The notes under the pieces are model-generated. The model was not told the DNA's origin. It was given only the letters and a program-made list of their open reading frames with translations, and did not search any database. DNA of 15,812 nucleotides from an uncultured Spirochaetales bacterium. Lineage in GTDB: Bacteria; Spirochaetota; Spirochaetia; Sphaerochaetales; Sphaerochaetaceae. The translations under genes and the position numbers were made by a program. Below, one piece after another: positions 12,601-15,812 of the stretch. Position 1 is the stretch's first letter; the number at the start of each line of letters is the position of its first letter. Location: positions 1 through 15,812 of the forward strand of contig CASEZU010000016.1 in the NCBI GenBank assembly GCA_949292445.1, given 5' to 3'.

Positions 12601-12621
12601 TCGCAGTATTCCTGCAGATGG

Positions 12622-12650
12622 CCTCCCAGAAATGGGAGGTTTCATTTTCT
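12622..12650 (+). terminator. intrinsic terminator after rpsG
   Basis: CCTCCCA (12622-12628) pairs perfectly with TGGGAGG (12633-12639) around a GAAA tetraloop, followed by the U-rich tract TTTCATTTTCT. This is a clear Rho-independent terminator and marks the end of the rpoBC-rpsLG transcription unit. Confidence 0.9.
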
Positions 12651-12686
12651 CCCGCTGTTTGTGCTATCATTTCCGAAGGAGGCGCT

Positions 12687-13022
12687 ATGATCCCTGATTA
12701 CGATGATTACTATTCCCTGACGGCCTATGCCAGACGTTTCATAAGGACGCCGATGCGTGAGATCGAGGGATGGCTTTCCCAGCGTTCTACCGTGGCCATG
12801 ATCACCGACTGGGAGAGGCGCAACGGCAATGACAGCTTCCGGGAATCGAGCGTCCCGTATCTTTTTGAGCGTGCCGATAAGGATGAGGTCATAACAGTGC
12901 CTGATTTCATTGCCCTCACATCATGCCAGGGCATAGCGCTGGATGGCGAGGAGGTGATTGCTGATATCGCGATCTATAATGATTTCGTCGCTTTCCTCAC
13001 CGCGCGGGGAATAAACATCTAG
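12687..13022 (+). CDS. small KilA-N-like domain protein
   Basis: A 111-residue protein from ATG 12687, preceded by the strong SD AAGGAGG (12676-12682). The layout resembles the KilA-N fold found in phage and viral DNA-binding proteins. YYSLTAYARRF (8-18) stands for the opening strand and helix. GWLSQRSTVAMITDWERRNGN (28-48) resembles the family Trp-Leu, rnt and WE-x-x-N pattern. VPDFIALTSCQGIAL (71-85) is followed by ADIAIYNDFVAFL (92-104), like the closing DIA-x-x-F-x-x-W/F helix. The glycine-rich GRYGGT turn of typical members is replaced by DGEEVI, so the match is distant. There is no N- or C-terminal partner domain. It may bind nucleic acid; the target is unknown. An upstream in-frame extension to 12618 overlaps the rpsG terminator and is rejected. 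Confidence 0.5.
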   Translation: MIPDYDDYYSLTAYARRFIRTPMREIEGWLSQRSTVAMITDWERRNGNDSFRESSVPYLFERADKDEVITVPDFIALTSCQGIALDGEEVIADIAIYNDFVAFLTARGINI

Positions 13023-13028
13023 AAATGG

Positions 13029-13062
13029 AAAACCGCGCACTGAGGCGCGGCTTCATCATTTT
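13029..13062. terminator. bidirectional terminator between convergent genes
   Basis: CCGCGC (13033-13038) pairs with GCGCGG (13045-13050). Read on the minus strand the stem is followed at once by TTTTCC, a good U-tract for the TSCPD gene. Read on the plus strand it is followed by CTTCATCATTTT, a weaker tract for the KilA-N-like gene. It lies exactly between the two convergent stop codons. Confidence 0.8.
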
Positions 13063-13310
13063 CCAAGTGCTTCTCCGATTGCTTTCGAGAGCTGGTCAGG
13101 GCAGGATGTGGGCTTGAGGCCGCACCTTATTCCTTTTACTCTCTCCATCACTTCCTCAGCCTTCTGGCCCTCGCAGAGCCTGCCGATTCCCTGCAGGTTG
13201 CCATGGCAGCCGCCATTGAACTTCAGGTTGTGGATCCTTCCCTCATCATCGATCTCGAATGTGATTGCCCTCGAGCATGTCCCATGCGTCTTATATTCAA
13301 CTGTTCTCAT
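13056..13310 (-). CDS. TSCPD-domain small protein (TIGR03905-like)
   Basis: An 84-residue minus-strand protein. It ends in the hallmark TSCPDQL (68-74) and has the four-cysteine pattern of the short stand-alone TSCPD family: Cys12 in GTCSRAI, Cys35 in GGCHGNLQGI, Cys46 in LCEG, Cys63 in GIRCG and Cys70 in TSCPD. The same domain occurs at the C terminus of some vitamin B12-dependent ribonucleotide reductases, where its cysteines are thought to bind metal or act in redox chemistry. The role of the short form is unknown. The start at 13310 has SD AGGAG five bases upstream; a longer in-frame beginning to 13355 has none. It is transcribed towards the KilA-N-like gene and divergently from the lipoprotein gene. 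Confidence 0.88.
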   Translation of the reverse strand: MRTVEYKTHGTCSRAITFEIDDEGRIHNLKFNGGCHGNLQGIGRLCEGQKAEEVMERVKGIRCGLKPTSCPDQLSKAIGEALGK

Positions 13311-13326
13311 GTTTTCTCCTCGCTGT

Positions 13327-13355
13327 AAGATACGAAAATGCAAATGATTGGGCAA
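13327..13355 (-). promoter_or_regulatory. possible promoter of the TSCPD gene
   Basis: On the minus strand TTGCCC (13355-13350) and TATCTT (13332-13327) are spaced by 17 bases, each with four of six consensus bases. The start point would fall around 13320, giving a very short leader beginning at the SD. In the other direction TTGACG (13364-13369) with AATCAT (13387-13392), also 17 bases apart, could drive the lipoprotein gene nearly leaderless. Both are weak calls. Confidence 0.3.
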
Positions 13356-13398
13356 GTTCCCCTTTGACGATGCGGGATAAATGCGAAATCATGGGAGT

Positions 13399-14917
13399 AT
13401 GAAAGGTTTTCGTTCAATTGTTTTGTTTGTGATGATCATGATGGCCTTTTTCCTGCCGTCATGTGATGGGGACGCCGGAATTACCCCCCCCTCCATCGGA
13501 TGAAGAGGCCCCGTCGGGCCCTGTGACCGATCCCGGAACATCTCCAGGCGGAGGTGGCGGCGGAACTTCTTCCGGACTTGATACTGCGGAGAAAAAGGAA
13601 CTTCTTGCCGGTTTTGATCTGAGGTCATTCCTTGCTGATTCTCTGGAGAATGTTGAAAATCCCGAGAATGTCAAATGGAATGATGGGGACATTGCTGCAG
13701 CTGCATCGCTTCTGGGGAACAGCTCCGGAAGAGAGCTCAGCTTTACCGTCAGCTTCGAAAATGAACCTTATAATGGCTCTGTCGTTTCCGGTACAGTCGG
13801 ATATGTTCTCTCTGTGACAGATGGAGCTGTCAATGGCTATAAGGCTTCCACTTCTGATGATGCCGGTCTGGAAGTTGATGGCTACAAGCTGACCGTTGCG
13901 ATGAATGAGATGGTGACTGCCTATGGTACTGTGAGTGTCAGCGGCGGCAAGGCTGAATTCACTGATCTTGAAGCGATTCCTGTCCCTGTAGGAACAGATA
14001 TTTCTGTTTCGCTGGAAGGGGAGGAGATTGATCTTGATGAGCTCTTTGTGGACATACCTAAGCGGCACGCAGAGTATGAGGATATCCCTAAGGATCTTTA
14101 TACGATAATGCAGGGCATGGGTAATCTGACGATGTATGTGGCGCAGGGAATTTCTTCTCCGGTGGAAGGCTATTATGATCTGTCTGATCTCTCCAGAACA
14201 TCAGCTGATCCTGATGCGTTCCGGTCTTATGTGAGGTTCTCTGACTATGAGTATCAGGAAGGGCAGTATCAGCTGACGATGACGGAAGTCCATGCAGAAG
14301 GTCCTCTGAACATCAGGTATAATGATCAGACGATATATTACTCCGGCATTCTTGATGTTGATATGGAAACTCCGAATTTCGGAACCACATTTGACAATTT
14401 CGCAGCAACAATTGTTCCTGATGCGGGGGATGTGGAAATGACCGATCCGGTAAACGGTACATATGTATCAAATCTTGCAAGTTTTGCTGATTCTCCTGAG
14501 TTCTCGGCAGAAATCGAAATCAGCGACAGGATCTATGAGAATGACGAATACATTGCCATGGGGACTGTAAATGTGCTGAATATGTTCCTGTGTACCCTCA
14601 ATGATGAATGGCTTATTCCTGATTCGGAAAATTCCGCAGCAGGCAGGCTGTATATAGGGGAGGCAGGTTTCAGCTCGGCCATTGAAGGCAGATACACTAA
14701 GGAAACTGGCGGAACAATATCAATCACTGAAGGGTGTGTTAAGCCTGTTGCGGGGTATGAGTTCACATTCTCTGCCACGATAAAGCCATTGGCTTCCGCA
14801 GCCGGTTATTATGTATACTCACTGCAGGATTTTACATTCGAAGAGTGCGAGTATAATGAAGAGCAGATAGGGTATCTCAATGCCCTCAGCAGTATGACTG
14901 GCGGGATGTATTATTGA
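13399..14917 (+). CDS. putative phase-variable lipoprotein, frame broken at C8 tract
   Basis: ATG 13399 opens a clear lipoprotein signal peptide: MKGFRS, a hydrophobic core (IVLFVMIMMAFF) and lipobox LPSC with Cys22. That frame stops at TGA 13501 after 34 codons. The following long frame (open to TGA 14915-14917) has no signal peptide or SD of its own. Removing one C from the C8 run at 13484-13491 joins them into a 505-residue lipoprotein. The joined protein would have a Pro/Ser/Asp/Gly-rich tether (about 29-60, including six glycines), then an acidic, beta-rich body with two related segments (255-297 and 351-390). No known family is recognised. The body uses more A/T-ending codons than the ribosomal genes. 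Likely an outer-membrane or periplasmic lipoprotein, not expressed in this copy. ATG 13381 is an alternative in-frame start. A GNAT gene follows after 15 nt. Confidence 0.75.
13484..13491 (+). repeat. poly-C tract (C8), candidate contingency repeat
   Basis: Eight consecutive cytosines lie 22 bases after the lipobox cysteine codon. I noticed no longer C or G run elsewhere in the window. C7 or C10 would keep the signal peptide in frame with the body; C8 or C9 would not. Slipped-strand changes in poly-G/C tracts switch genes in Treponema pallidum and other bacteria. Confidence 0.85.
14162..14569 (+). repeat. diverged internal duplication in the lipoprotein
   Basis: At protein level, the segment at 14162-14290 (VEGYYDLSDL... 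FSDYEYQEGQY... TEV) and the segment at 14450-14569 (VNGTYVSNLA... ISDRIYENDEY... GTV) share the pattern V-x-G-x-Y, S-x-L, AD, F, [FI]-SD, Y-x-E/N and a closing V. The units are about 40 residues long and 96 residues apart. The DNA has drifted, so this is an old duplication and not a recombining repeat. A weaker third copy may end the protein (YYVYSLQDFTFEECEY). Confidence 0.45.
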
Positions 14918-14932
14918 AGCAGAGGAGGGGTT

Positions 14933-15388
14933 ATGAGGATCAGGAGATATTCATCTGCGGATGCTGCTTCGGTCGCTTCCCTTTTCAGGGAGAGTGTCTG
15001 GCAGCTCTGCCGTGATTCATACACCCCTCTGCAGCTTTCGGCCTGGGCTCCGGATGATATCGATCCGGAGGTCTGGGCTGAGAGGTTCTCCGATCAGTAC
15101 TCGATAGTTGCCGAAGAAGGAGAGAAGCTCATCGGTTTCGCCTCAGCCGATCTTCGTGAAGGTTATGTCGACATGCTCTATGTCTCTCCATCTGCTGCGG
15201 GGCATGGGGTAGGGAAGCAGCTTCTTCTGGCCCTGGAGGCCATGATGGAGACGGAAAACGTCTCTGTGCATGCTTCTGATACCGCAAAGGGCTTCTTCCT
15301 CCATATGGGTTACCGTGCTGTTCGTGAAAATACCGTGGCAAGACGCGGCATTGAGCTCCGGAACTGGCTCATGGAGAAGGGAAAATAA
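14933..15388 (+). CDS. GNAT family N-acetyltransferase
   Basis: A 151-residue protein of the GCN5-related acetyltransferase superfamily, which transfers an acetyl group from acetyl-CoA to an amine. IRRYSSADAASVASLFRES starts with the usual first strand and helix. LIGFASADLREGYVDMLYVSP (66-86) forms strands 2-4. The CoA pyrophosphate loop is AGHGVGKQLL (89-98). ASDTAKGFFLHMGYRAV (114-130) is the closing A-x-x-FF-x-x-GY motif with Tyr127. The segment YTPLQLSAWAPDD (30-42) is typical of the YafP-like group. The substrate cannot be predicted. SD GAGGAGGGG lies two bases before ATG, and the gene starts 15 nt after the lipoprotein gene, so the two are probably cotranscribed. Confidence 0.9.
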   Translation: MRIRRYSSADAASVASLFRESVWQLCRDSYTPLQLSAWAPDDIDPEVWAERFSDQYSIVAEEGEKLIGFASADLREGYVDMLYVSPSAAGHGVGKQLLLALEAMMETENVSVHASDTAKGFFLHMGYRAVRENTVARRGIELRNWLMEKGK

Positions 15389-15404
15389 TCCTTCCGGTAT
15401 ATTC

Positions 15405-15466
15405 TAACTTATTTTCTTAAAAAGAATTGGAAATCTGTTGACAAAGGCATGGCGTTTGTGTAAATT
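15405..15466 (+). promoter_or_regulatory. strong tuf promoter with UP-like element
   Basis: TTGACA (15438-15443), a perfect -35, and TAAATT (15461-15466) are spaced by exactly 17 bases. The 30 bases upstream (15405-15433) are rich in A and T tracts (TTATTTTCTTAAAAAGAA), like the UP elements bound by RNA polymerase alpha C-terminal domains. Expected start is near 15473. Such strength suits EF-Tu, usually the most abundant cell protein. I see no strong terminator for the upstream GNAT gene in 15389-15437. Confidence 0.85.
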
Positions 15467-15472
15467 AGGCAA

Positions 15473-15812
<340 letters not shown>

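Follow-up and report, generated by a model that had tools for sequence, protein, structure and literature searches.

Does a run of eight cytosines that breaks the reading frame of a lipoprotein gene mark a gene that has died, or one that can be switched off and on again? This question was raised by a locus in the rpo/str region of a spirochaete, contained in a stretch of 15,812 bases that was analysed as a whole and is called the window here. The window carries the genes for tRNA-Trp, nusG, ribosomal proteins, rpoB, rpoC, rpsL and rpsG, a 134-codon open reading frame (ORF), a TSCPD-domain protein, the lipoprotein under study, a GNAT acetyltransferase and the start of tuf. Among these, rpsG, TSCPD, GNAT and rpoC were named by family search, and the remaining protein genes were named from their translations.

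Judging from RpoC, the contig comes from a bacterium closely related to Candidatus Ornithospirochaeta stercoravium. The window RpoC was 93% identical to that of Candidatus Ornithospirochaeta stercoravium in the best segment, and its first 500 residues were 100% identical to those of two family genomes (G055 and G065) and 98% identical to those of G001 (Candidatus Ornithospirochaeta stercoravium). The lineage is uncultured, and its sole named member is a metagenome assembly, which, going by the title of a paper, appears to come from chicken gut. We know of no link between the Ornithospirochaeta-like lineage and disease.

The C8 Run Separates the Lipoprotein Signal from an Open Body

The features of the locus are listed in Table 1. 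Translation of the signal-peptide frame yielded MKGFRSIVLFVMIMMAFFLPSCDGDAGITPPSIG, after which the frame closed. An alternative start for this frame is an in-frame ATG at 13381, and an in-frame stop codon (TAA) lies further upstream at 13378. The LPSC motif follows a hydrophobic core, and by both rule and eye this arrangement fits a signal peptide with a lipobox. The C8 run begins 7 codons past the lipobox Cys and occupies codons 29-31 of the lipoprotein gene; the signal and body frames join at the run, so its length sets the reading frame. On the 3' side of the run, 3 codons are open in the signal frame, 474 in the body frame and 10 in the third frame. These translations and frame counts confirmed the sequence-only reading, which had placed the signal peptide with its LPSC lipobox and the body in different frames, with eight C at their overlap. 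The run is the sole C or G run of at least 6 in the window, for which a first-order Markov model gave about 0.10 C runs and about 0.33 G runs of at least 8; the homopolymer is thus longer than expected by chance.

Table 1. Positions of the lipoprotein gene features and of the neighbouring genes in the window.
Feature	Position	Strand	Basis
134-codon ORF, sub-threshold KilA-N match (E 0.002)	12618-13022		Family search
TSCPD-domain protein (TIGR03905), upstream neighbour of lipoprotein gene	13059-13313	-	Family search
Signal-peptide frame, 34 codons and stop TGA (13501-13503), from ATG 13399	13399-13503	+	Translation
Lipobox LPSC, Cys codon 13462-13464	13453-13464	+	Translation, position from sequence
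Body frame, 484 codons from GTG 13463, 474 of them after C8, closed by a stop	13463-14917	+	Frame count
C8 homopolymer with TTA on its 5' side, frame junction	13484-13491	+	Sequence, run count
GNAT acetyltransferase, downstream neighbour of lipoprotein gene	14933-15388	+	Family search

Apart from this single frame break, the lipoprotein gene is intact, and it is known only in the out-of-frame form. The third-position GC content of the body (13493-14917) was 0.45, compared with 0.72 in rpoB and rpoC, and the gene may be foreign or weakly expressed. The body gave no match in Pfam and NCBIfam at E 0.1, and a protein database search for a known family retrieved only the body itself. An AlphaFold model of the body, built from three sequences, had a mean pLDDT of 38.3 and was too poor for use. 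Five public protein records were found, four in cluster P0001 and one further record, P0005, and both representatives begin 3' of the C8 run, a pattern that would also be expected if the off state were fixed or if several assemblies derived from one sample. P0001 starts at GTG 13523 and illustrates that gene callers can lose the start of a lipoprotein. P0005, listed as an 86% match, is identical to the body over the first ~170 residues and unrelated beyond that point; it probably represents a chimeric contig.

The Body Is Patchily Distributed in Relatives

Homologues of the body were found in 3 of 139 family genomes (G056, G042 and G067). The one in G056 lies in the order TSCPD, lipoprotein, GNAT and tuf, and it was the only syntenic homologue found. 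It is intact in one frame and has its own lipobox. Its identity to the window body was 31%, whereas the product of the neighbouring 134-codon ORF, which has relatives in 41 of the 139 family genomes, was 93% identical. At the window locus, the body was present in 1 of 27 relatives (G056), with some of these loci cut by contig ends. In G001, GNAT follows directly after TSCPD with no body in between, and other relatives carry different inserts. The lipoprotein gene thus has a scattered occurrence and, given its low identity next to a well-conserved neighbour, appears to be evolving rapidly. We also observed that, in relatives, insertions are concentrated in the stretch between rpsG and tuf (12618-15715; loci L114-L140), where inspection of translations by eye revealed other lipoprotein-like genes, an ATPase-like gene, a second GNAT, a HAD-like hydrolase and sugar-kinase-like genes.

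The homologue also bears on what the sequence-only reading had expected of relatives. That reading had argued against an old pseudogene from a body of about 470 codons without stops, and the 474 open codons, the single frame break and the intact G056 homologue all agree with it; decay of the body in relatives, regarded as the mark of a plain pseudogene, was not seen in this syntenic copy. A conserved gene start had been expected as well: the layout of signal peptide, lipobox and linker is kept in G056, but the residues themselves are not alike. In the G056 gene, a G9 run lies in frame within a glycine linker 3' of the lipobox. This run sits 26 residues past the Cys and has no TA abutting it (the GnTA flank described below), and it is a different tract from the window C8. 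The homologues of G042 and G067 had no G/C run of at least 6 in the stretches read.

Long G/C Runs Form a Distinct Population in Close Relatives

In five close relatives, all G/C runs of at least 8 were listed and inspected (n = 103; loci L173-L202 and L203-L281), with 30 runs in G043, 20 in G055, 16 in G056, 14 in G059 and 23 in G065; these are fragmented assemblies, in which a single locus may count twice near contig ends. Across six genomes, the number of such runs per genome ranged from 13 to 30, and C/G runs of this length were present in 133 of the 139 family genomes. The whole-genome counts by exact length in the five relatives were 444 runs of 6, 33 of 7, 35 of 8, 56 of 9, 9 of 10, 2 of 11 and 1 of 13. 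It was observed that the counts fall to 33 at length 7 and then rise to a second peak at 8-9, with 12 runs longer than 9, and the long runs are thus a population distinct in tract length. Length 7 itself shows no gap. A/T runs fall steadily with length (125 runs of 6, 26 of 7, 7 of 8 and none of 9) in 259 kb from relatives, taken from stretches chosen for their long G/C runs.

Sorting of the 103 runs placed 53 in a promoter-type class and 23 in the start of a lipoprotein gene, and 27 belonged to neither class; 71 of the 103 were linked to lipoprotein-like genes. As a control, we used 2353 random positions within the same loci. A run was called promoter-type when TTGACA (at most 1 mismatch) was followed by 7-12 nt, the G run and a directly adjoining TAnnnT. 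In these 53 cases the run forms the 3' part of a putative -35/-10 spacer, compared with 2 of the 2353 random positions; 6 of the 53 are close to where a contig or a stretch ends and may be counted twice. The total spacing was 15-21, with 18-19 in 38 of the 53. Based on this arrangement, we consider that the sites presumably act as promoters. A simple lipobox rule, by which the downstream lipoproteins were called, was matched by 48 of the 49 uncut genes behind promoter-type runs; four more genes were cut by a contig end. In a Pfam scan of ten promoter-type genes at E 0.01, three matched (Big_3 twice and GLUG once) and seven gave nothing. In G001, 9 of 13 runs were promoter-type.

Runs at Lipoprotein Starts Occur in Both Frame States

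Lipoprotein starts contained 23 of the 50 non-promoter runs and 59 of the 2353 random positions (Fisher P about 4e-22); the recurrence of runs at lipoprotein genes is therefore not random. Most of these runs are placed as in the window or inside the signal peptide. The run follows the lipobox in 12 cases. The lipobox frame continues into the longest downstream frame in 6 of them and does not in the other 6, and the distance from the Cys to the run is 4-12 residues in 11 of the 12 (7 in the window). For the 11 runs before the lipobox, a same-frame start codon was found within 90 nt in 3. Overall, 9 of the 23 lipoprotein-start runs of the relatives were in frame and 14 were not, and the class thus holds mixed frame states. 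Among the out-of-frame cases, L247 (cut after 15 codons) and L268 (a body of just 70) are weak, and long bodies are kept in L190 (460 codons) and L198 (500+ codons). Two tandem paralogues in G043 have a C9 in frame and a C8 out of frame, respectively, and their bodies are 41% identical over 118 positions.

We further compared runs with similar surroundings. Flanks at least 85% identical were shared by 17 pairs, and the tract length differed in 12 of these. However, 16 of the 17 pairs come from G043 and are non-independent: L181, L213, L223 and L224 are located at contig ends and could in part represent a single locus counted twice. Three pairs have flanks 94-100% identical, unequal tracts and different bodies, and are hence clear of most of the doubt about double counting: L213/L216 (9 and 8), L222/L226 (8 and 11) and L252/L253 (8 and 9). 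Tract lengths therefore differ between near-identical flanks of different genes. Together with the placement of 23 of the 50 non-promoter runs in lipoprotein starts, the coexistence of in-frame and out-of-frame copies supported the proposal, made from the window alone, that the lipoprotein is phase-variable. The window run is thus no isolated case, and, within the reach of the data, none of the three outcomes that the sequence-only reading had named as grounds for rejection came about.

Coding and Promoter-Type Runs Mostly Share a Flank

The dinucleotide TA comes immediately 3' of the G run in all 53 promoter-type cases (by definition), in 20 of the 23 runs at lipoprotein starts and in 15 of the 27 others, compared with 37 of 575 runs of G4-6. 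T is the next base after 4 of the 33 runs of 7, versus 93 of the 103 longer runs. The window C8 fits this GnTA signature on the opposite strand, where the TTA before the run (13482-13491) supplies it. The signature is directional and accompanies most of the runs, including coding ones, where no promoter reason for it was seen.

The pattern TTGACA-N8-12-G8 was present in 44 of the 139 family genomes, and the backward pattern gave 4 matches over all 139. Every genome with an RpoC N-terminal identity of at least 95% (24 of 24) had at least 3 matches and zero backward matches, with overlapping spacings counted. In a sample of the phylum, the pattern was found in 77 of 392 genomes, some of them apparently outside the family of the window, and the backward pattern in about a dozen. 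Genomes that appear to lie outside the family also had many TTGACA-N-G8 matches; G456, G401, G492 and G179, for example, had 25, 13, 12 and 10, respectively, with overlapping spacings counted.

Discussion

In the present study, we found that the window gene is very probably a contingency (phase-variable) lipoprotein locus, one of a repertoire in its clade that is switched by G/C runs. For the class of loci, phase variation has strong support, and for the window gene itself it is likely. We propose that slipped-strand mispairing would change the length of the C run close behind the acylation site, a step that we infer at the window tract, and that each change would join the mature protein to the frame of its signal peptide or separate it from that frame. 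With the tract as sequenced, translation would stop three codons past the C8, which indicates that the protein is off. The clade would hold a repertoire of lipoproteins whose switching depends on G/C runs, usually 8-10 long; in most members the run would set the -35/-10 spacing, and in a minority, including the window gene, it would lie in the first codons. The consequences of tract length for expression are predicted from these placements, and the lipoproteins are presumed to be exposed at the surface and to act in host interaction.

Similar slippery runs recur at lipoprotein genes in the relatives inspected, which suggested a gene that is switched on and off rather than one that has died. 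We also weighed a chance C8 within a proline linker; it is conceivable for one locus alone, but it clashes with the association with lipoprotein starts, the GnTA flank and the run-length peak. A recent pseudogene, inactivated by slippage at a C run that is not under selection and too young for its body to have decayed, would agree with the out-of-frame window form, with the two public representatives that start after the C8, with a body found at the locus in a single relative, as if dispensable, and with the third-position GC content below that of rpoB and rpoC. We nevertheless consider it improbable, because the C8 belongs to a distinct tract population tied to lipoprotein starts and because out-of-frame relatives, such as L190 and L198, keep long bodies too.

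Two further explanations would leave the DNA fixed. Homopolymers are prone to sequencing error, and the true tract could be of another length and permanently in frame; given that long C/G runs occur in nearly all family genomes, that separate assemblies hold out-of-frame copies and that a length of 8 is within the usual range, such an error in sequencing or assembly is the least probable of the explanations weighed here. A C run read as CCC codons is a plausible site for slippage, and some full protein could arise from unchanged DNA through slippage during transcription or a ribosomal frameshift at the run. Such recoding would account neither for the location of most of these runs in promoter-like spacers, which are untranslated, nor for the coexistence of in-frame and out-of-frame copies, and as a replacement for phase variation we judge it very unlikely, although it could operate alongside it.

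Beyond the single gene, the larger result is the lipoprotein-centred repertoire of run-switched loci in this lineage. The G(8-10)TA signature shared by promoters and codons might reflect one sequence-guided mechanism that creates or preserves the runs in both. From this, a tentative and rather doubtful picture can be drawn, in which Ornithospirochaeta-like spirochaetes possess a lipoprotein-centred phasome with a shared directional G(8-10)TA, sequence-guided making or keeping of runs and a coat that is reshuffled combinatorially. In the literature searched, which left out most subscription papers, we found no report of a lipoprotein repertoire or of phase variation in this group. According to a review, multi-locus phase variation seems to be confined to pathogens, an open question to which database bias may contribute (PMC11868660). 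With 71 of 103 runs tied to lipoprotein-like genes in an uncultured lineage, this question becomes testable in existing metagenomes.

The coding runs resemble the poly-G/C loci of Campylobacter, Helicobacter and Neisseria in that a surface-related gene carries a homopolymer close to its start. In the coding contingency loci of these genera, the length modulo three sets the frame. In contrast to theirs, the coding runs of the clade lie at the signal peptide or lipobox of lipoproteins and mostly share GnTA with the promoter-type runs. Large repeat-mediated repertoires are named for the three genera in the same review (PMC11868660).

The Vlp system of Mycoplasma hyorhinis is similar in that a set of surface lipoproteins is switched in combination. 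Its tract is a poly-A promoter tract, of A rather than G/C. Mycoplasma belongs to another phylum, and the clade, unlike Vlp, uses two placements, the promoter-like spacer and the first codons.

The nearest spirochaete case found is that of the poly-G promoters of Treponema pallidum. A poly-G lies between the -35 and -10 sites of tp0126, where transcription was best at 17-nt spacing, and G runs (7-11 in tprL) are located at the promoters of tprE, G, J and tprL, which encode putative outer-membrane proteins (PMC7864442). Both cases are spirochaetes, and 53 of the 103 runs in the five relatives fit the corresponding promoter-type sequence pattern. Unlike the T. pallidum runs, the window run is coding and does not lie between -35 and -10 sites, the clade genes behind promoter-type runs are nearly all lipoproteins by the simple rule, and the promoter-type run of the clade directly abuts TAnnnT.
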